Under the pieces are notes generated by a model, which was not told the origin of the DNA, made no database searches, and saw nothing but the letters and a program-made list of their open reading frames with translations. 27,641 bases of DNA, taken from the IMG/VR virus record IMGVR_UViG_3300009408_000079, positions 1-27,641 of that record. One strand, 5' to 3'. Each line of letters begins with the position of its first letter. The stretch's first letter is position 1. This DNA is from a virus. Below are positions 8,370 to 19,429 of this stretch, one piece after another. Position numbers and translations under genes: made by a program.

Positions 8370-10187
8370 TCAGCCCTGAGCGGGCGGGGTCTGTGGGGGT
8401 TGCTTAGCTGCCTGGGCTGCTGCCTGGGCGTCAGTGATTTCCTTGATCTTGCCCGTGACGGCGTCGAGGTACTGGTACAGCAAGTTGACATGTTGAGAGG
8501 GGGTCTCCTGCATGAGAGTCTCTGCCAGCTGTGCCACACCGTGGGAGATGGCGAACTGGAGGTTCGTGTACTCGTCGGGGGGTGTGTAGATGCCCTTGGA
8601 GAGCATCTGGTTGACACGGAAGCGCACCAGCTCCTCCGTGGCCGTGACCACGTTCAGCTCGTCCTTGAGGTCGGGGAAGTCCAGGAGGCGGAGGATGGAG
8701 CCGCGGTCCTTGATGACCCCGTCCTGTACCAGGCTGCGTACGGCCTGAATCTTGGCGGCGGGGTTCTTCGGGAGCGACGACACGGGGAAGATGTCGAAGA
8801 CGAAGTCCTTCTCTTCAATCTTGCAATCCGCCCACTTGAAGTCCTCCAAGGTCCGGGTCTGCTTGTTGGTCATCACAGAGGTAATCTCCACTGCGATGCC
8901 TCCAGCCTCCAGACGCTTGGCCTCTTCCACGATGAGAGTGCCAATGCGGAGGAACAGCTCCTCGTACTCCTGGCCCTTCAACACGAAGCGCCGGGTCTCG
9001 ATGTCATTGAACTCAGTGATGGCTCGACCACTTACCAGGCCCGCGGGCTTCTTGGACTGCGCGTTCATCTGCGAGGCGCCGGAGACGTCGTAGATGAGCG
9101 TGCCTAGCCGGTCCATGTGCGCGTACATCTCCGGAGGCAAGAGCGCCTGGGTGAGCTGCACAGGCGGCGCGGAGCCCACAGTTCGAGGAATCATCGAACC
9201 ATCGGGCTGGTTGGTGATGTCCTTGGCATCGATGCTGCCTGCCTCGTAGCTGATGCGAGAAACACCGTTGGCGTAGAAGGTTCGAGAAATCTTGGTGAGA
9301 ATCTCGTTGTACTCGCGGTCGATGGGACCAATCTCCTGGACCAGGGAGTCGCCCCAGAAGCCGCTGGTGGGCGCCGTCCAGTAGAACCAGAAGAAGGGCA
9401 AGAGCTTGGACGTCCACGTCTCTTTGCCAAGGATGGCTCCATCCACGGCCACGATGTGTGTACCCGTCTCGCCGGTCTCAGACGCCCGCCTCCACGACTC
9501 GATGAGCATGGTGTAGGAGACGTTCCGGTCGAGGGAGTAGGTCGTGAAGATTTCCGCCACATCATCACCGAAGCGAACCGTGGATGCCTCGATGGTGAGC
9601 TTGTGCTTGGGGTACTTCTTGACCAGCTGTGCCGTGGGGATGAACCGCACATAGTGCATCGACATGGGGTCGCCGTAGTAACCATCCTTCTCGTCCACCA
9701 GCACCTCCCAGGGGAAGACGCGATCAATGACGATGCGACCAATCTTGTCCGGGTCGGTATAGGAGCGGATGCGTCCAAGTCCCGTGCCTCCCAACATGGC
9801 GTCGCGGACGACCATGGACACGCTGTGGTGAGCCTTGCTGCGCTTGATGACGGCGGACGTGAAGCCCGTCATCTTCTTGCCTCGCTCCTGCATCTCCAAG
9901 TCGCCACCACGGGTCACGACCGAGGGCAGGGGCTTGGTGTGCGTGATGGTGGCCAGGAGGGAGTTGGTGATGTTCTTGACCAGGTTGGCGGGGTTCTTCG
10001 TCCCACCTCCTGAGTTCAGAATCTCCAACGCCCGCTCTCGGCCACGCTTGCCACGGGGCTTCTTGTGATAGGCACTGAGGTTCTTCAGGTACGTCTTGCG
10101 CCTGAAAGAGTCCTGCTCCATCAGATCTTTGATGTAGGACGCGAGTTGCGCACCGTCTGCTTCCCACCAGGGAGTGTCAATAGCCAT
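8370..10187 (-). CDS. Portal protein
   Basis: I chose ATG 10187 (GGAGG six bases upstream) over the longer frame to 10235, because the shorter form starts 11 bases before the terminase stop and gives a 605-residue product. The N-terminal helices contain QDSFRRKTYLKNLSAYHKK. Further on are IGRIVIDRVFPWEVLVDEKDG near residue 160, SGFWGDSLVQEIGPIDREYN near residue 280, and the long C-terminal helix with NPAAKIQAVRSLVQDGVIK. These are typical podovirus portal features (head-tail connector through which DNA is packaged). The protein ends in a Gln/Pro/Ala tail. It lies between large terminase and scaffold. Confidence 0.92.
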   Translation of the reverse strand: MAIDTPWWEADGAQLASYIKDLMEQDSFRRKTYLKNLSAYHKKPRGKRGRERALEILNSGGGTKNPANLVKNITNSLLATITHTKPLPSVVTRGGDLEMQERGKKMTGFTSAVIKRSKAHHSVSMVVRDAMLGGTGLGRIRSYTDPDKIGRIVIDRVFPWEVLVDEKDGYYGDPMSMHYVRFIPTAQLVKKYPKHKLTIEASTVRFGDDVAEIFTTYSLDRNVSYTMLIESWRRASETGETGTHIVAVDGAILGKETWTSKLLPFFWFYWTAPTSGFWGDSLVQEIGPIDREYNEILTKISRTFYANGVSRISYEAGSIDAKDITNQPDGSMIPRTVGSAPPVQLTQALLPPEMYAHMDRLGTLIYDVSGASQMNAQSKKPAGLVSGRAITEFNDIETRRFVLKGQEYEELFLRIGTLIVEEAKRLEAGGIAVEITSVMTNKQTRTLEDFKWADCKIEEKDFVFDIFPVSSLPKNPAAKIQAVRSLVQDGVIKDRGSILRLLDFPDLKDELNVVTATEELVRFRVNQMLSKGIYTPPDEYTNLQFAISHGVAQLAETLMQETPSQHVNLLYQYLDAVTGKIKEITDAQAAAQAAKQPPQTPPAQG

Positions 10188-11583
10188 AACCATCCTCCGT
10201 TTGAGCCCTTCTGGACTCAGCGATTTCATGTTCAATCATCTCATCCTCTTGCTGTTGGCGCCACTTGGCAGAACCAACCGCAGGAGGGGGCACCTCAGCA
10301 CGCCCCATCCAGGCCATGGCGTCCCTGTAAGCGTAGAGGAAGCCGTCCGCCGCGTGGTCGATGGACCCCTTCTGGACGTCGGTGCCCTCGTCATTCCACA
10401 TCAGCTCTTCCAGCTCCTCCAGGAGAATGTTGGCCCCGGGGGTGACGAAGAACACGTCTCCATCCTCCATGGCACCAATGAGCAGGCGCCTGTTCCCGAG
10501 CTTGTCCCGCTTCTCCGCGGCGAACACGGGCAGACGGTACCTCTTGCGGAAGTCCTTGACGTAGCCCACGCCCAACGCGCCTGCGTCCACAATGACTCTC
10601 GCTACCATGGGGAAGTTCACCATCAGCGCCTTGATGTGGCTGGCGATGGAGGATGGGGTCATGCCGGGCTTCTTGTCCGAGTGGATGACCCAGACCTTGT
10701 TGGGGACCGTCGTGTCCCAGACCATGACGATGAACGAGGTCGAGGGCTTCGCCTCGGACGCGCCAAGATCAACGGCGAGGATGCCCTGTGTGGTCATACG
10801 AGGCACGAAGCCGTCGATGATGCACTCGGGCTTGACCGGGTAGACAATGCCACCAGCGTTGTCAATCCACTTGCCGTACTTGAGCTGGTCCCTGGTTGTA
10901 CTATCCAAGGTATCAAAGCTCTTTTCGTACTCCTCCAGGTTCAGGTGGGGGTTGTCTCTCATGGTGGAGGGGATGAAGACGTGCCCCGCATACGGCTTGA
11001 CGATGAACCGCTTCTTGACCCATTTGTGGCCGTAGCCCCCAGGGTTGGTCGACGCCTTTGTCACCAGCTCGATGGGGTCGCCGTAGTTCTTCCTTCGGCG
11101 CGTCTTGAGGTAGGTGTACTGCGTCTTGGTGAACTGCGTTAGCTCGTCAAAGAACTCACCGTGGTACTCGGAGCCCTGGTGGCTGTACTTGTCCCTCTCG
11201 TCCTTCAGGTGGCTGAAGCGGATGGTGCCACCGTTGGGGAAGCTGTACTCGTTCTTGGAGGCAATCCACGTCACCTTCGGGTTGTTGGCCCACCACTCGT
11301 GGGCGAGCGTGAGGATACCACCTGCCTGATTGAGCTGGGGGAAGGTTCTACGAAAGACCACACCAGAATACCCGGGGAGGTGGACGTCCCTAGCCGCCGC
11401 CGCAAGGAGCGCGACCGTCTTTCCACCACCTGCGGCTCCGCCGTACAGGGTCTCGTCGTCGTTCGTCTCCACGAAGCTGCGCTGCTTCTCAGTGAGCTGC
11501 ACCGGGACGAACTCCGAGTACGAGGTGTCCATGACCTCGATGATCTGCTTGGCCTCCTCCATCAACGTCTCAAGATCATCCAT
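10177..11583 (-). CDS. terL: Terminase large subunit
   Basis: This is the ATPase-nuclease motor that packages and cuts DNA. With start ATG 11583 (GGAG seven bases upstream, overlapping the previous stop) it is 468 residues long. The Walker A GGAAGGGKT is at residues 48-56, with VVFRRTFPQLNQAGG following. The Walker B with catalytic Glu is FFDEL around 144-148. The C-terminal RNase H-like nuclease shows AVDLGAS (Asp 272), VIVDAGALG (Asp 333) and SIDHAADGFLYAYRD (Asp 409 or 413). All key residues are present and length is normal. It overlaps the portal start by 11 bases. Confidence 0.97.
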   Translation of the reverse strand: MDDLETLMEEAKQIIEVMDTSYSEFVPVQLTEKQRSFVETNDDETLYGGAAGGGKTVALLAAAARDVHLPGYSGVVFRRTFPQLNQAGGILTLAHEWWANNPKVTWIASKNEYSFPNGGTIRFSHLKDERDKYSHQGSEYHGEFFDELTQFTKTQYTYLKTRRRKNYGDPIELVTKASTNPGGYGHKWVKKRFIVKPYAGHVFIPSTMRDNPHLNLEEYEKSFDTLDSTTRDQLKYGKWIDNAGGIVYPVKPECIIDGFVPRMTTQGILAVDLGASEAKPSTSFIVMVWDTTVPNKVWVIHSDKKPGMTPSSIASHIKALMVNFPMVARVIVDAGALGVGYVKDFRKRYRLPVFAAEKRDKLGNRRLLIGAMEDGDVFFVTPGANILLEELEELMWNDEGTDVQKGSIDHAADGFLYAYRDAMAWMGRAEVPPPAVGSAKWRQQQEDEMIEHEIAESRRAQTEDGYGY

Positions 11584-12049
11584 TCGCACGCTCCAGGGCC
11601 TGTTCATAGATGAGCCGTTGCTGGAGGAAGTCGTAGTCGAAGCGCCAGTCCGTCCTCTCGGAGGTGTAATCCTTCTGCCACATCTTGGTACCAGAGCAGA
11701 GACACACCATGGGGAGATCGCCACGTGCATGGTCTACCAGGGCACGGGCGAAGCCCAGCTCCCGGAACGGCTTGGCGGTGAAGCCGAAGTAGATGGCCAG
11801 CCACCGCTCTTGCCAATCCTCCGTGGCCATCCACGCCAAGGGCACGTCGGGGCTCTTCGGGTGGACCACCTTCTCGATGTGGGTGCTTGGGAGTGAGAGG
11901 ATGCCCTTCATCGTCTCCCCGAGGACGTACCGGGAGAACACCCGCTCGCCGCTCAAGGGCGTCTTAGAGCGCCTCCCAGACTGCGTCCAGGTGCGGTAGA
12001 TGAACTCCAGATCGCTAGGCTCAGCCGGGAGAATGACGACCTCAGACAT
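11576..12049 (-). CDS. GNAT-like acyltransferase-fold protein between terminase genes
   Basis: The 157-residue product starts at ATG 12049, which overlaps the upstream stop and has GGAGG six bases before it. The opening VVILPAEPSDLEFIYRTWTQ resembles the first strand and helix of GNAT proteins. LAWMATEDWQERWLAIYFGF gives the central strands, and KPFRELGFARALVDHA resembles the acetyl-CoA-binding R-x-x-G-x-A loop and helix. No acceptor is known. GNAT-like small proteins do occur near terminase genes of podoviruses, but their role is unclear. The fold call is by eye and enzyme activity is not shown. Confidence 0.65.
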   Translation of the reverse strand: MSEVVILPAEPSDLEFIYRTWTQSGRRSKTPLSGERVFSRYVLGETMKGILSLPSTHIEKVVHPKSPDVPLAWMATEDWQERWLAIYFGFTAKPFRELGFARALVDHARGDLPMVCLCSGTKMWQKDYTSERTDWRFDYDFLQQRLIYEQALERANG

Positions 12050-12626
12050 CCACAACCTCCGTGGGGAGCACCTTCAGCTCCGCCACTACCTCCTTCGGAA
12101 GGGGGTGCATGGCGGCGTCCAGGGCACGCCTGACGCTCTCTACGCCCCCTGAGAGGTACAGCTGATACACGAGCTGTCCAACCAGCTGCATGGCCTTAGG
12201 AGCCGCCTCAGCGGCCACCACGGGGTTCTCCATGCCCTTCACCACCGTCTCGACCCTGTCCGTGGTCTCTCCCTGAAGAGCCAGGAGCGTCGTGGCGGCC
12301 TTCATGCGGTCGGTGCTTCCAATCCCCTCCTCGCCGCGCATGGCGGAACCAAGCCACCGGGCCACGTCGTCGCGAGAGGTGGGTTGGTTGCGCTCGATGA
12401 AGTCCAGGCAGTCCTTGAGGATGATGAAGTTGGAGGACCCCAGAAGCGCCTCTACAGCCGCCAAGGGCTGCTCCACGAAGTCAGCCAGGAGCGGGAGGCC
12501 GTCCTCGTCCTGGAACCGTGCATGTTGGAGGTAGGTGCTGATGATGTCCCGTTCCACCGGAGACATCAACGCCAGCATCCGAGAGACGAAGTCCCTCTTG
12601 GTGGCCAGTAGCAGTGTCATGTCCAT
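12042..12626 (-). CDS. Putative terminase small subunit, first gene of the late cluster
   Basis: ATG 12626 follows GGAGG by five bases and gives 194 residues. The same frame extends to a GTG at 12665 without a visible ribosome site. A second ATG lies at 12620. The product is almost all alpha-helical (DFVSRMLALMSPVERDII, RMKAATTLLALQGE, AMQLVGQLVYQLYLSGG). Its helical make-up and position at the head of the packaging cluster suit a DNA-recognising small terminase. I see no clear helix-turn-helix, so the call rests mainly on position. An unrelated early-late protein remains possible. Confidence 0.55.
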   Translation of the reverse strand: MDMTLLLATKRDFVSRMLALMSPVERDIISTYLQHARFQDEDGLPLLADFVEQPLAAVEALLGSSNFIILKDCLDFIERNQPTSRDDVARWLGSAMRGEEGIGSTDRMKAATTLLALQGETTDRVETVVKGMENPVVAAEAAPKAMQLVGQLVYQLYLSGGVESVRRALDAAMHPLPKEVVAELKVLPTEVVDV

Positions 12627-13556: not shown

Positions 13557-13706
13557 GAGCGCCGACGCGTGTGCGAACAGTCCAACGAGGAGGCGTGGGC
13601 GCTCGTCGCCATCGTGCTCGACAACGGATCAAGGATCGAAGTGACGGCTCGCGACACCGACACAGGGCACCTCGTGGAGTCGCACGTTTACAAGGAGATC
13701 ACATGA
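13509..13706 (+). CDS. Small protein, 65 aa, first gene of replication cluster
   Basis: ATG 13509 has GGAG eight bases upstream. The frame is open further left but that part has non-coding third-position composition. The product starts MKSRDAVGHKIVRVEQERRR, has a charged helix, then beta-type AWALVAIVLDNGSRIEVTARD. No family is recognised. Its stop overlaps the primase start as ATGA, so the two are translationally coupled. The role is unknown. Being the first gene of the rightward unit suggests early expression. Confidence 0.6.
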   Translation: MKSRDAVGHKIVRVEQERRRVCEQSNEEAWALVAIVLDNGSRIEVTARDTDTGHLVESHVYKEIT

Positions 13707-14515
13707 CTACGAGACGTGATTCGAAGGGTGGCTGGAGTCCGACACCCATTGAGTTCTCCACATTCTCCAAGGCGGGTGACAACCGTCCAACCCGACGGCA
13801 GGCACCCAGCTGGGAGGCGCTCACGGAGCAGCTATCCCAGCCCCTGGTCACCACAAGCAAAGACGTGATGCTGCTGAGCCCGGCCATCTACGCGCCTGGG
13901 GCAACCAGGGCCAACGCCAACGTCCAGGCCCTGACCTTCCTCATGTTGGACCTTGATCACCGGACGCCCAAAGAAGTCGACGACCTCGTCGACCACCTGG
14001 AAGAGCAGGATTTCACCTACTTCGCTCACACCACCTTCAGCCACACCGCCACAGACCAATGCTGGCGGTTCCTCCTTCCCCTGAGCCGCCCCGTCACCCC
14101 TGCTGAGTGGCCTGGATTCTGGAAGACCTTCACAGAGCAACACGCTCCGACGTCGGACCGGGCCACCAAGGATCCAGCACGCTCCTACTACGTCCCCAGC
14201 TACCGGCCTGACCACCTGCACAACACCGAGCAGTACATGGGTCAGCCCATCCCCGTCGAAGACTACCTCGACCCCACCGAGCCCCTCGAGCCCACCAAGC
14301 CCCTAGATATCCCCCACACCACCACTCCCATCACCTTCACCCAAGACGACTTCCCCCTACAAGCTGATGTATCAGATGTTCCTGGCCGTGGCTCAACAGG
14401 CCGACCTACAAGCCATCCCACCGTGCCCGTTCCTCACCGACCACCCTGGTATCCAGAAGCTCAACCGCCTCGAACAGCCCAACCAGCAGTGGACAGACGC
14501 TCGCCTCCAGCGTGA
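13703..14515 (+). CDS. AEP-type DNA primase domain, N-terminal part of a split primase-helicase
   Basis: Start ATG 13703 has AAGGAGA seven bases upstream. The frame gives 270 residues, but only the first 218 look genuine. MLDLDH carries Asp 83 and Asp 85, the metal-binding pair of archaeo-eukaryotic-type primases. FAHTTFSHT, CWRFLLPLSRPVTPAEW and DPARSYYVPSY (from residue 157) follow the usual order of this phage primase group. From the run of five C's at 14353-14357 onward, third-position GC falls sharply and the sequence becomes Pro/Arg-rich shadow. The next frame becomes coding at that point. In related phages this domain is commonly fused to a VapE-type helicase, so this is probably the front half of one 737-residue protein. 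Confidence 0.8.
   Translation: MTTRRDSKGGWSPTPIEFSTFSKAGDNRPTRRQAPSWEALTEQLSQPLVTTSKDVMLLSPAIYAPGATRANANVQALTFLMLDLDHRTPKEVDDLVDHLEEQDFTYFAHTTFSHTATDQCWRFLLPLSRPVTPAEWPGFWKTFTEQHAPTSDRATKDPARSYYVPSYRPDHLHNTEQYMGQPIPVEDYLDPTEPLEPTKPLDIPHTTTPITFTQDDFPLQADVSDVPGRGSTGRPTSHPTVPVPHRPPWYPEAQPPRTAQPAVDRRSPPA
14353..14357 (+). other. Apparent +1 frameshift site at a run of five C's
   Basis: The primase frame reads TTC CCC CTA here and the helicase frame reads CCC TAC AAG. Skipping one C after CCC joins DDFP directly to YKLMYQMFLAV and produces a continuous 737-residue primase-helicase. Coding-style third positions change frame exactly here. It may be a programmed +1 shift at CCC-C, a real mutation splitting the gene, or a sequencing or assembly error in a homopolymer. 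Confidence 0.6.
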
Positions 14516-15917
14516 TTGGGACCGCTCATGGGAGTGGACCATCTCCTCCAAGCAGACGGCTCCTGTCCTCGAGGAACTCAAGAAGGCCATGCTGGAGGAG
14601 ATTACGCGCCAGCGAGCTGCCACCTGGGCTGGACGCCTCCAACGCACGGCCAAGGACGCCGTGAAGGCCAACGCCTTCAACGCCAAAATCTACGCCATGC
14701 ACCACCCCCTGCTCACCGATCGCTTCGCCCGGGACATCACCAACGACCGGCCCATGCTCCTCCCCCGCGTGGCCCCCGCCAAGTACACGCTCCGTGAGGA
14801 CCACCACGTCAGCCAGTTCCATGTGGACCTGTGCATCGCCACTGGTCTCTCCTTCACCGAGGAGGCCGCCCGCCAAGCGTCGGACTATCAGGCGAGCAAG
14901 AACCCTCGCAACGTGCTCTTGGAGCTGCTGGAGGCAGTCCCGCAGTGGAACAAGCAGGACAACATCCCCCACTTCGTCCGCACCTTCATCAAGGCCGACG
15001 CCGACGACACCGAGGTGGAGCTGATGAAGAAGTGGCTCATCGGCGCCGTCCGCCGTCTGAAGGTCCCTGGTTCCAAGAACGAGAACATGCTCATCCTCCA
15101 TGGGGACCAAGGCATTGGTAAGAACTGGCTCATCGATGTATTGTCCATGGGCGCTGTGAACCAAAACCCGCCACACCCATCCGACAAAGACTTCATCGCG
15201 CAGACCACCAATTCCTGGATTGTCATGTTCGATGAATTCACGAGCATGTACAACAAGGCCGACGTGGACGCCTTCAAGAGCTTCCTCTCCACCTCTGAGG
15301 ACGACAAGAGGCTCTCGTACCGCCACGACTCCAAGCGCATCCTCCGCCGCCAAGCGTATGTGGCCACTACCAACGAGGCGGCCTTCCTCAGGGACAACAC
15401 CGGAAACCGCCGCTTCTGGCCACTTCACATGACGGAGAACATCATCGAGCGCCTGGACGAGATGCGTGCGTGCGTACCTCAGGTGTGGGCTGAGGCCATT
15501 GCTCGAGAGGCTGCTGGGGAGGACAACTTCTTCCTCAAGGAGCAGACCCACCTAACAAACCTTGTACGCATGGAGGACCCGCTCAAGGACTCCATTGAGA
15601 ACATGCTCGAAGCGTCGAACGGTCGCCCATTTTCCTTCGCCGATGTACTTGAGTTCTTGCAGAAGACCAACCGGGATTCCTTCGTTATCTCCAGCATTCT
15701 CCGAGCCCTTGGTTGCCACAAGAAGAGGGGCTCCTTCCCTGGAAGTAAAACCAAGCACTCCATCTACTGGAAGGGCGACGAAGAGCCTGACAAGAACAGC
15801 CGCTTCACTCTTCAGGACATGCGCAGCGGTCATGTACAAGGCACCGCAGCCGTCGCTGCTGGGCTCGCTGCGGTAATCCCCATCAATACCCACACCACCA
15901 AGGAACAGACCCCATGA
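14367..15917 (+). CDS. VapE-type superfamily 3-like replicative helicase
   Basis: As an independent gene this would be 516 residues from ATG 14367, but no ribosome site precedes it. Coding signal in this frame begins a few codons earlier, at about 14358. It has HGDQGIGKN (Walker A; Lys 252, with Asn 253 where Ser or Thr is usual). The Walker B is VMFDE with Asp 289 and Glu 290. YVATTNE follows as sensor 1, then RDNTGNRRFWPL with the arginine pair typical of virulence-associated E proteins. It should unwind DNA at the fork as a ring, next to its primase. The stop overlaps the next start as ATGA. Confidence 0.88.
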   Translation: MYQMFLAVAQQADLQAIPPCPFLTDHPGIQKLNRLEQPNQQWTDARLQRDWDRSWEWTISSKQTAPVLEELKKAMLEEITRQRAATWAGRLQRTAKDAVKANAFNAKIYAMHHPLLTDRFARDITNDRPMLLPRVAPAKYTLREDHHVSQFHVDLCIATGLSFTEEAARQASDYQASKNPRNVLLELLEAVPQWNKQDNIPHFVRTFIKADADDTEVELMKKWLIGAVRRLKVPGSKNENMLILHGDQGIGKNWLIDVLSMGAVNQNPPHPSDKDFIAQTTNSWIVMFDEFTSMYNKADVDAFKSFLSTSEDDKRLSYRHDSKRILRRQAYVATTNEAAFLRDNTGNRRFWPLHMTENIIERLDEMRACVPQVWAEAIAREAAGEDNFFLKEQTHLTNLVRMEDPLKDSIENMLEASNGRPFSFADVLEFLQKTNRDSFVISSILRALGCHKKRGSFPGSKTKHSIYWKGDEEPDKNSRFTLQDMRSGHVQGTAAVAAGLAAVIPINTHTTKEQTP

Positions 15918-16545: not shown

Positions 16546-17849
16546 AAATCGTCAACCGTCCGAAGACCATCTCCCCGTCGCAGCTGAGAAAGTGGCAGTC
16601 CTGTCCCCGCTCTTGGGGCATCGAGAAGCTGTGTGGCGTCAGGAGCCCACCTACCCAGAGCCTCATGGTTGGAACCAAGGTTCACGAGCACCTGGAGAAC
16701 TTCATCACCAGCCACACACTTCCACCCACGGGACAGCTCATCCACGACCCAGAGCACCGCAAGGAGCCCAAAGACCCGGGCGCTCTGGCGCGGCTCGCCC
16801 TCCCCATCCTCCGGGAGCTGCCCTCCAACACCCAGGTGGAGGAGGACTGCCGGTTCGAGGCGGACGGAATCGCATGGTTCGGTCGCGTTGATCTCCAGTA
16901 CAAGACCTCCCACGGCGTACCCGTGGTCTGGGACCACAAGACGTCCTCGGACCCCCGTAAATGGGGACTCACCAACAGGACCCTTCCCTACGACGTGCAG
17001 GCCCTGGTCTACGCCAAGTGGAAGTTCACCCAGGACCCCTCCCTCCAAGAACTCATCCTCAAGTGGATGTACATCCCCACCTCCGAGTCCGCCAAGTCCC
17101 AAGGCGCCTCTGTGGTTTCTTCGAAAATCACACGAAAGGAGCTTGACGCGAGGTGGAAAGATGTTCATAAAGATGCCAAGGACCTCTGGGAGGCCATTCA
17201 GACCACCCAGGATGTTCAACAACTCCTCGCAAACCCGGAAGCGTGTTCACAATGGGGTGGATGCCCACACCGGGAGAGCGGTCGTTGTTCCCTCAACCAG
17301 GAAGCGCACATGTTCGATTCGTTTGAAGCTCAAAACACTCCTCCGCCCCCTCCGCCCCTGCCCCCCAAGAGCCAGAAGCGCATCCAGCTGGAGGCTCTCT
17401 GCTCCGTGGAGGGACTCGAGTATGGCCCCCACCTCACCGACAAGGCTCTAGAGGCCATGCTGGGCGCGGCCATGAACAGCGAGGAGACCCCTGGCCTGGT
17501 GCCGCCCCTCCCCGACGCTCCTCCTCCCCCACCCAGCGCACCCGACACGTCGGACCCCAGCACCACGGACATCCGCACCATGGACCGTGTTCAGCTGAAG
17601 GCCATCGCCGTGGCCAAGGGGCTTTGCCCACCCAACACCCGCCTCAAGAAGAAGGGGTTGCTGGAGCTTTTGGAGGAGCTCGAGCCCGAGCCCACTCCTC
17701 CCCCACCCGACGTGGAGCACCTCAAGGTGGACTTCCCCAAGACGACGTGGCTGATGCTCGTGGCGGCGGCCCTCCAAGGGGGCAACACCCACGAAGACGC
17801 CATGGCCATGGCTGACGTCATCCTCGCAAGGGCGGAGGCTCGGAGCTGA
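16542..17849 (+). CDS. PD-(D/E)XK nuclease, RecB/Cas4-like, with Fe-S cysteines
   Basis: I chose GTG 16542 (GTGA overlap with the previous gene) over the longer frame to 16488. The 435-residue product starts with ISPSQLRKWQSCPRSW (Cys 21), the usual RecB-type opening. GTKVHEHLE follows, then GRVDL (Asp 117), VVWDHKTS (Asp 131, Lys 133) and the QALVYAKW motif. Cys 235, 241 and 249 follow the core and, with Cys 21, could hold a 4Fe-4S cluster as in Cas4 and AddB. The last 170 residues carry Pro-rich linkers and two short helical units around RIQLEALCSVEGLEYG and VQLKAIAVAKGLCPP that resemble SAP/HeH DNA-binding helices. It likely trims DNA ends in recombination or replication. Confidence 0.85.
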   Translation: MKIVNRPKTISPSQLRKWQSCPRSWGIEKLCGVRSPPTQSLMVGTKVHEHLENFITSHTLPPTGQLIHDPEHRKEPKDPGALARLALPILRELPSNTQVEEDCRFEADGIAWFGRVDLQYKTSHGVPVVWDHKTSSDPRKWGLTNRTLPYDVQALVYAKWKFTQDPSLQELILKWMYIPTSESAKSQGASVVSSKITRKELDARWKDVHKDAKDLWEAIQTTQDVQQLLANPEACSQWGGCPHRESGRCSLNQEAHMFDSFEAQNTPPPPPPLPPKSQKRIQLEALCSVEGLEYGPHLTDKALEAMLGAAMNSEETPGLVPPLPDAPPPPPSAPDTSDPSTTDIRTMDRVQLKAIAVAKGLCPPNTRLKKKGLLELLEELEPEPTPPPPDVEHLKVDFPKTTWLMLVAAALQGGNTHEDAMAMADVILARAEARS

Positions 17850-19429
17850 TGGAAGTCCAGGACACCCGAGAGCTGCAACGCATCAAGCACTTGCCAACGC
17901 AGGCGCACATGGTGCTGGAGCAGCTTTCGGGCGTCCGCATCCCACAGCACATCCACCTCCGACCCATCCAGCTCGAGGCTCTGCAGGTTCTCCAGTCCCA
18001 GGGCACGCTCTTCGCGCCTCTGCCCGTTGGCGTGGGCAAGACCCTCATCACCTACCTGGCTCCACAGGCCGTCCAGTCGAAGCGCCCCGTGCTCCTGGTT
18101 CCTGCCAGCCTCCGCAAGAAGACCGAGGAAGACTTCCAAGCCTTCGGTCCCCACAACATCACCATCCGCACCTACGAGTGGCTGGCGCAGGCCAAGAACA
18201 AGGACGCCCTGCAAGATCTCGCTCCCGACCTCTTGATGGCGGACGAGTCGCACAAGCTCAAGTCGAGGAAGACCGCCGCAGCACGGCGCGTCCACCGCTA
18301 CCTGAAGGCCAACCCGGACACCAAGTTCGTGGCCCTCACCGGGACCATCGCCAAGCGCAGCATCCGCGACTACGCCCACATCATGGCCTGGTGTCTACGC
18401 GAGCTGACGCCCCTCCCCGTGCGGTGGAACGTGTTGGACGAGTGGGCACGCGCCACGGACATCCTCAAACCCTACGAGAGCCCCCTGGACCCTGGAGCGC
18501 TCAACCAGCTGCGCCGTCCGGCCGAGACCTTCATGACCATCCGTGAGGTCATCCAACGGCGCATCGCCGAGACCCCTGGTGTGGTGACTGCCCCCGCCCC
18601 GCTCGAGCTCCCAGCCATTAGGTTCGTCCACGACACCGTCCCCACCATACCCATGTCCATCCACGCGGCCATGGGCAGGCTCCGTGGGGAGTGGGTGCTA
18701 CCGGGTGGCACGCTCCTGGAGAGCCCAGTGGCCGTGTGGCGGGCCATGCGACAGCTTTCCATGGGCTACTACCTCCGCTGGACGAAGGTCCCGCCAGCCA
18801 AGTGGATGCATGTCCGCCAGCAGTGGTTCCGCGCCGTGCGGGAAGCCCTCTCCACAGGACGCATCGACACGCCCAAGCAGCTGACCAACGCCATCGAGCG
18901 TGGGGAGTACAGGCACCTCCATTACCTCCGCCGCCAGTGGGAGGACATCAAGTACAGCTTCACGCCCACCACGGAGGCCGTGTGGCTGGACACGTTCCTC
19001 TTGGACTGGACCAAGGCCGTGGTGTCCATACGCCCCGTTCCGCTCCTCGTGTGGACGGACCACGTCGCCTTTGGTGAGGCCCTAGAGCCCAACATCCCCT
19101 GGTGCGGCTCGATGAATCCGCCTGTTCGGGGCCCCGCTGTCCAGTGCTGCTCCATCATGGCCCACGGCACGGGCAAGAACCTCCAGTGGTGCTCCTCCCA
19201 GATGCTACTGTCCGTGCCCCCGACCGGCGCCACGGTCGAGCAGCTGCTTGGACGCACCCACCGCCCTGGTCAGACCCAAGAAGTCACCACCTACATCAAC
19301 ACGTCCCACATCACGCAGCGGATGGACTGGATGAAAGTGCTGGAAGATGCGCGTTATATCCAAGAATCGACCGGACAAGTACAGAAAGTTCTGCAAGCGG
19401 GCTTGACTGCGGGTTCGCTGGGGTTATAG
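17849..19429 (+). CDS. SNF2-like DEAD/H helicase
   Basis: The ATG at 17849 overlaps the nuclease stop (TGATG). The 526-residue product has LRPIQLEAL (Q-like element), PVGVGKT at 59-65 (motif I), VLLVPASLRKK (Ia), LLMADESHKLK with DESH at 132-135 (II) and FVALTGTIAKRS (III). The C-terminal domain has QLLGRTHRPGQTQEV with the arginines of motif VI. The middle part (about 180-420) is longer than in minimal phage SNF2 proteins and holds a Trp-rich region. Such proteins translocate on DNA and are frequent in phage recombination modules. Pairing with the nuclease suggests they act together. Confidence 0.9.
   Translation: MEVQDTRELQRIKHLPTQAHMVLEQLSGVRIPQHIHLRPIQLEALQVLQSQGTLFAPLPVGVGKTLITYLAPQAVQSKRPVLLVPASLRKKTEEDFQAFGPHNITIRTYEWLAQAKNKDALQDLAPDLLMADESHKLKSRKTAAARRVHRYLKANPDTKFVALTGTIAKRSIRDYAHIMAWCLRELTPLPVRWNVLDEWARATDILKPYESPLDPGALNQLRRPAETFMTIREVIQRRIAETPGVVTAPAPLELPAIRFVHDTVPTIPMSIHAAMGRLRGEWVLPGGTLLESPVAVWRAMRQLSMGYYLRWTKVPPAKWMHVRQQWFRAVREALSTGRIDTPKQLTNAIERGEYRHLHYLRRQWEDIKYSFTPTTEAVWLDTFLLDWTKAVVSIRPVPLLVWTDHVAFGEALEPNIPWCGSMNPPVRGPAVQCCSIMAHGTGKNLQWCSSQMLLSVPPTGATVEQLLGRTHRPGQTQEVTTYINTSHITQRMDWMKVLEDARYIQESTGQVQKVLQAGLTAGSLGL

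Follow-up and report, generated by a model that had tools for sequence, protein, structure and literature searches.

A phage AEP primase and VapE-type helicase recorded in two frames: probably one gene broken by a single indel

The 27,641-base window analyzed here, which is the whole of an IMG/VR virus record without an attached host genome, encodes an AEP/PrimPol primase domain followed in the +1 frame by a VapE-type helicase (Table 1). We favor, at a probability of roughly 0.64, the reading that the two are halves of a single phage replication gene whose frame has been broken by one indel, most likely within TTCCCCC. Such an indel would have come from an error of sequencing or assembly, or else the sampled virus would itself have undergone a recent frameshift mutation. 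With the frame restored, the gene would encode a working primase-helicase of about 737 residues, whose helicase ring would unwind DNA and whose N-terminal primase would make primers.

Table 1. Features at and around the frame switch, in window coordinates
Feature	Position	Strand	Frame or size	Basis or remark
AEP/PrimPol primase domain	13703..14356	+	218 codons, mod3=2	Profile, motif, and fold matches
CCC CTA hexamer identical to the switch site	14300..14305	+		Read in the primase frame
TTCCCCC, likeliest switch site	14351..14357	+		Posterior 0.69; total range about 14339-14360
Primase-frame tail	14357..14515	+	52 codons + TGA	Shadow of the helicase frame
VapE-type AAA+ helicase	14358..15917	+	mod3=0, first ATG 14367	Pfam, PHROG, and PDB matches
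TGATG, third-frame stop overlapping the helicase ATG	14365..14369	+		With the primase in mod3=1 here, would form a coupled junction

The primase half matched the PHROG profiles phrog_9765 (DNA primase, E=1.5e-17) and phrog_256, and its motifs LDLDH, TTFSH, and TKDPARSYYVP align with those of its relatives (DxD, sxH, and the third motif). In a moderately confident structure model (pLDDT 69) the three motifs lie on an AEP fold, the top PDB match being the AEP domain of the cyanophage S-2L PrimPol (6zp9, E=5.8e-4). The gene begins at an ATGA start with an SD sequence (aaggag) upstream. The helicase half belongs to the VapE family, since it scores 168.9 bits against Pfam PF05272 (E=1.4e-49; curated cut-off, 25) and possesses both the Walker A (GDQGIGKN) and Walker B (VMFDE) motifs; it also matched phrog_1313 at 1e-54. 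Profiles, motifs, and fold thus agree with a reading made earlier from the sequence only, in which an AEP primase precedes a VapE helicase. The Walker A motif (15103-15130) has an asparagine after GK, a position occupied by serine or threonine in the VapE relatives retrieved. A 758-aa single-frame protein at another locus (L210, 4032-6305) harbors a primase like that of the window at its N terminus (31% identity), together with a D5-like ATPase and a Cys-rich linker.

The record does contain the frame switch. When the coding frame was traced with a codon model that had learned from the window's remaining genes, it followed mod3=2 from 13703 and then mod3=0 from about 14352 to 15906; the frame change that the sequence-only reading claimed at or near the C run is therefore upheld. 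As recorded, the two domains do not share one continuous frame, the change falling at about 14339-14360. Stop codons alone require the switch to lie between 14304-14306, the last stop of the second frame, and 14513-14515, the first stop of the first frame. Within these bounds the C run is indeed the likeliest place (0.69), but its exactness had been overstated, because about 0.23 of the posterior lies upstream at 14339-14348 and a little at 14360. The coordinates reported earlier are correct for the C5 run (14353-14357), the CCC (14354-14356), the TAC (14358), the first ATG of the second frame (14367), and the two terminal stops (14513-14515 and 15915-15917), and skipping one C does give a product of 737 aa. 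The tail of the primase frame was also rightly described as shadow sequence: over 14357-14512 the +1 frame fits better by 36 nats, and an open tail of 52 codons is unremarkable, as stop-free stretches of at least this length are met at 29% of the positions of the shadow frame.

Consistent with a single indel, the primase-helicase is the sole in-gene frame break detected across 27.6 kb, and it is sited in a homopolymer. In a survey of prokaryotic frame transitions, singletons were put down mostly to sequencing error, to indels of recent origin, or to neighboring genes that had been misread (PMC3711429). Against this reading, none of the 59 other C/G runs of at least 5 in intact coding sequence is broken, so that the error rate is not generally high. 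The window (61% GC) carries leftward genes that include those for head adaptor, capsid, portal, and terminase, and rightward replication genes for the primase, VapE helicase, a PD-(D/E)XK nuclease, an SNF2-like helicase, and a family A DNA polymerase. A seeming second overlap at the terminase (11576-11730) was rejected, as it is a normal ATGA junction near 11580 with an upstream ATG wrongly called. The terminase ORF (10177-11730), called from the ATG at 11730, is accordingly overlong, its true start being at that junction, and a 159-aa ORF of unassigned function (11576-12055) precedes the true start.

The helicase lacks a ribosome site of its own, as had been noticed from the sequence. SD pairing amounts to +0.1 kcal/mol at the ATG at 14367 and -0.4 kcal/mol at the ATG at 14376, compared with -4.1 to -9.5 kcal/mol at all other starts checked in the window, including those coupled through ATGA and TGATG. 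The two domains are also joined in distant relatives: among the 48 fetched loci in which both were detected, 47 have primase and helicase in one open frame, and the remaining one has an in-frame stop. Fusion is thus usual among distant relatives, as had been supposed, and for viruses a joined or neighboring primase and helicase has been stated as the norm (PMC5862659). It is because the helicase ATG has no SD, other starts have one, and nearly all two-domain relatives are joined that a single indel-split gene is favored. We infer that the indel is not deliberately read through and that the unbroken gene encodes the two domains as a fusion. An AEP-VapE gene of a Clostridium MAG (L124, 3621-6014) has one in-frame stop between its halves.

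These relatives are all distant. Alignment scans yielded identities of only about 25-39%, with none above about 39% in the searched collections, and searches of GenBank phages, plasmids, IMG/VR, and GTDB genomes brought up no close relative, nor did DNA scans or single-protein scans with the helicase, primase, and terminase. Motif scans (GxQGxGKNW; AIYAxGxxRxNxN; W....DE plus TGNRR at fixed spacing) gave distant matches only, and the GxQGxGKNW pattern retrieved no relative of the window helicase. In a 399-genome sample of the Devosia phylum, six primases were detected, all of them distant, and in no case did a split VapE helicase follow. Manatee Spring phage MW202816, which has the nearest DNA polymerase, was considered and set aside, its "replicative helicase" being unrelated to either half of the window gene.

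Fusion is not universal, since in marine and Vibrio phages the primases of the window's subfamily are encoded on their own, at about 310 aa. A second plain reading, overlooked earlier, is that the window holds two translationally coupled genes, in which case the primase (about 221 aa) would once have ended at the TGA at 14365-14367, and an opposite-sign indel before 14365 would have put it out of frame and caused it to overrun to 14515. The sequence cTGATGt lies exactly at the helicase ATG and matches the junction at 17849 (TGATG, 17847-17851), ATGA junctions are the local style, and at loci L010 and L143 the VapE helicase stands alone, preceded by a primase gene of its own. Codon statistics are unable to discriminate between a coupled pair and a fusion, because just three codons separate the C run from the ATG; for the same reason the earlier assertion that the second frame is already coding before its first ATG, which was based on those codons (Y-K-L), is not demonstrable by composition. 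However, every coupled start in the window retains an SD, whereas 14367 has none; a stop so placed by an ATG is expected by chance about 1 time in 3 to 4 by our estimate; and joined genes are commoner among AEP-VapE relatives. We therefore regard a coupled pair as rather unlikely.

Alternatively, the switch could be a programmed +1 shift at UUC-CCC-CUA, with the P-site tRNA-Pro slipping by one base while the rare CUA stands in the A site, and the products would be the primase alone plus the fused primase-helicase. CCC-C is an exact slippable match, combining a slip-prone P-site codon with +1 re-pairing; CUA is among the rarer Leu codons in the window (27 of 540); and a helicase without a ribosome site is consistent with such a shift. 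Listeria phage PSA uses CCC as a +1 site, and the pheL +1 site has Phe-Pro before UGA (PMC5009743). Nevertheless, the CCC +1 sites that Atkins and others reviewed come with an A-site stop codon or a pseudoknot (PMC5009743), whereas the A-site codon here is a sense codon, downstream nested folding is no better than in shuffled sequences (z of 0.2 and 0.65), and a purine-rich or SD-like element is absent upstream. Nor is CCC-C avoided in frame (it accounts for 46 of the 201 CCC codons, and 25% of codons overall have C as first base). An identical CCC-CTA stands in the reading frame 54 bases upstream, where a +1 slip would hit TAG immediately; the shadow tail carries no coding signal, and the scans produced no relative near enough to reveal conservation. 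The programmed shift put forward by the sequence-only reading is thus unsupported and quite improbable, and the lesion or read error that it named as the plain alternative is the better reading. If the shift were programmed, the ratio of primase to helicase would be controlled by frameshifting, a control for which literature searches found no precedent; that slippage at this site fixes the ratio of free AEP primase to fused primase-helicase, and so shapes the make-up of the phage primosome, is a shade more doubtful still.

Two truly overlapping genes with no indel, the helicase starting at the ATG at 14367 or 14376 and the primase running to 14515, are very improbable. The first ATG lies 9 bases past the coding switch, so that composition cannot part a switch from a start, but SD pairing is lacking at both ATGs, the tail is not coding-like, and a 149-base overlap is unparalleled in this genome, where overlapping pairs join through short junctions (ATGA or TGATG). 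Transcriptional slippage is unlikely at the switch, the C5 run being short.

As recorded, then, the gene belongs, as a divergent member, to a known class of replication proteins and has a probable one-base break. More generally, recoding should not be claimed for a split replication gene from a lone metagenomic record until reads or relatives support it.

Among known systems, the Listeria phage PSA +1 sites (CCC_UGA, and ACA_CCC with a pseudoknot) share the slip-prone CCC proline codon with the window, but they are found in structural genes and have a stop codon or pseudoknot (PMC5009743), whereas the window site has neither a stop codon nor unusual nested structure. The primases nearest to the primase half, at 27-35% identity, are those of Vibrio phages V6Aob and henriette 12B8 and of three IMG/VR records (L174-L176). 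Unlike the window gene, they are stand-alone proteins of about 310 aa that possess a C-terminal domain of their own, and in V6Aob and henriette 12B8 a separate helicase gene follows; the idea that this C-terminal domain continues in the +1 frame across the window junction was set aside, the match being weak (3.4 bits, equaled by 6 of 1500 shuffles). For the helicase half, the sole clear sequence match of solved structure is the VapE of a Staphylococcus island (PDB 7pds, E=1.3e-25), which is distant and whose solved chain of 477 aa lacks an AEP primase. The architecture that we favor is seen in the PHROG 256 proteins gp96 of Brevibacillus phage Emery and clg_09 of Corynebacterium phage CL31, which, like the window, have an N-terminal AEP primase and a C-terminal VapE helicase. 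The phrog_256 profile matches the two halves of the window gene in order, and the two phage proteins, at 21-27% identity to the window, differ in having a longer linker domain and a single open frame of 790-850 aa.
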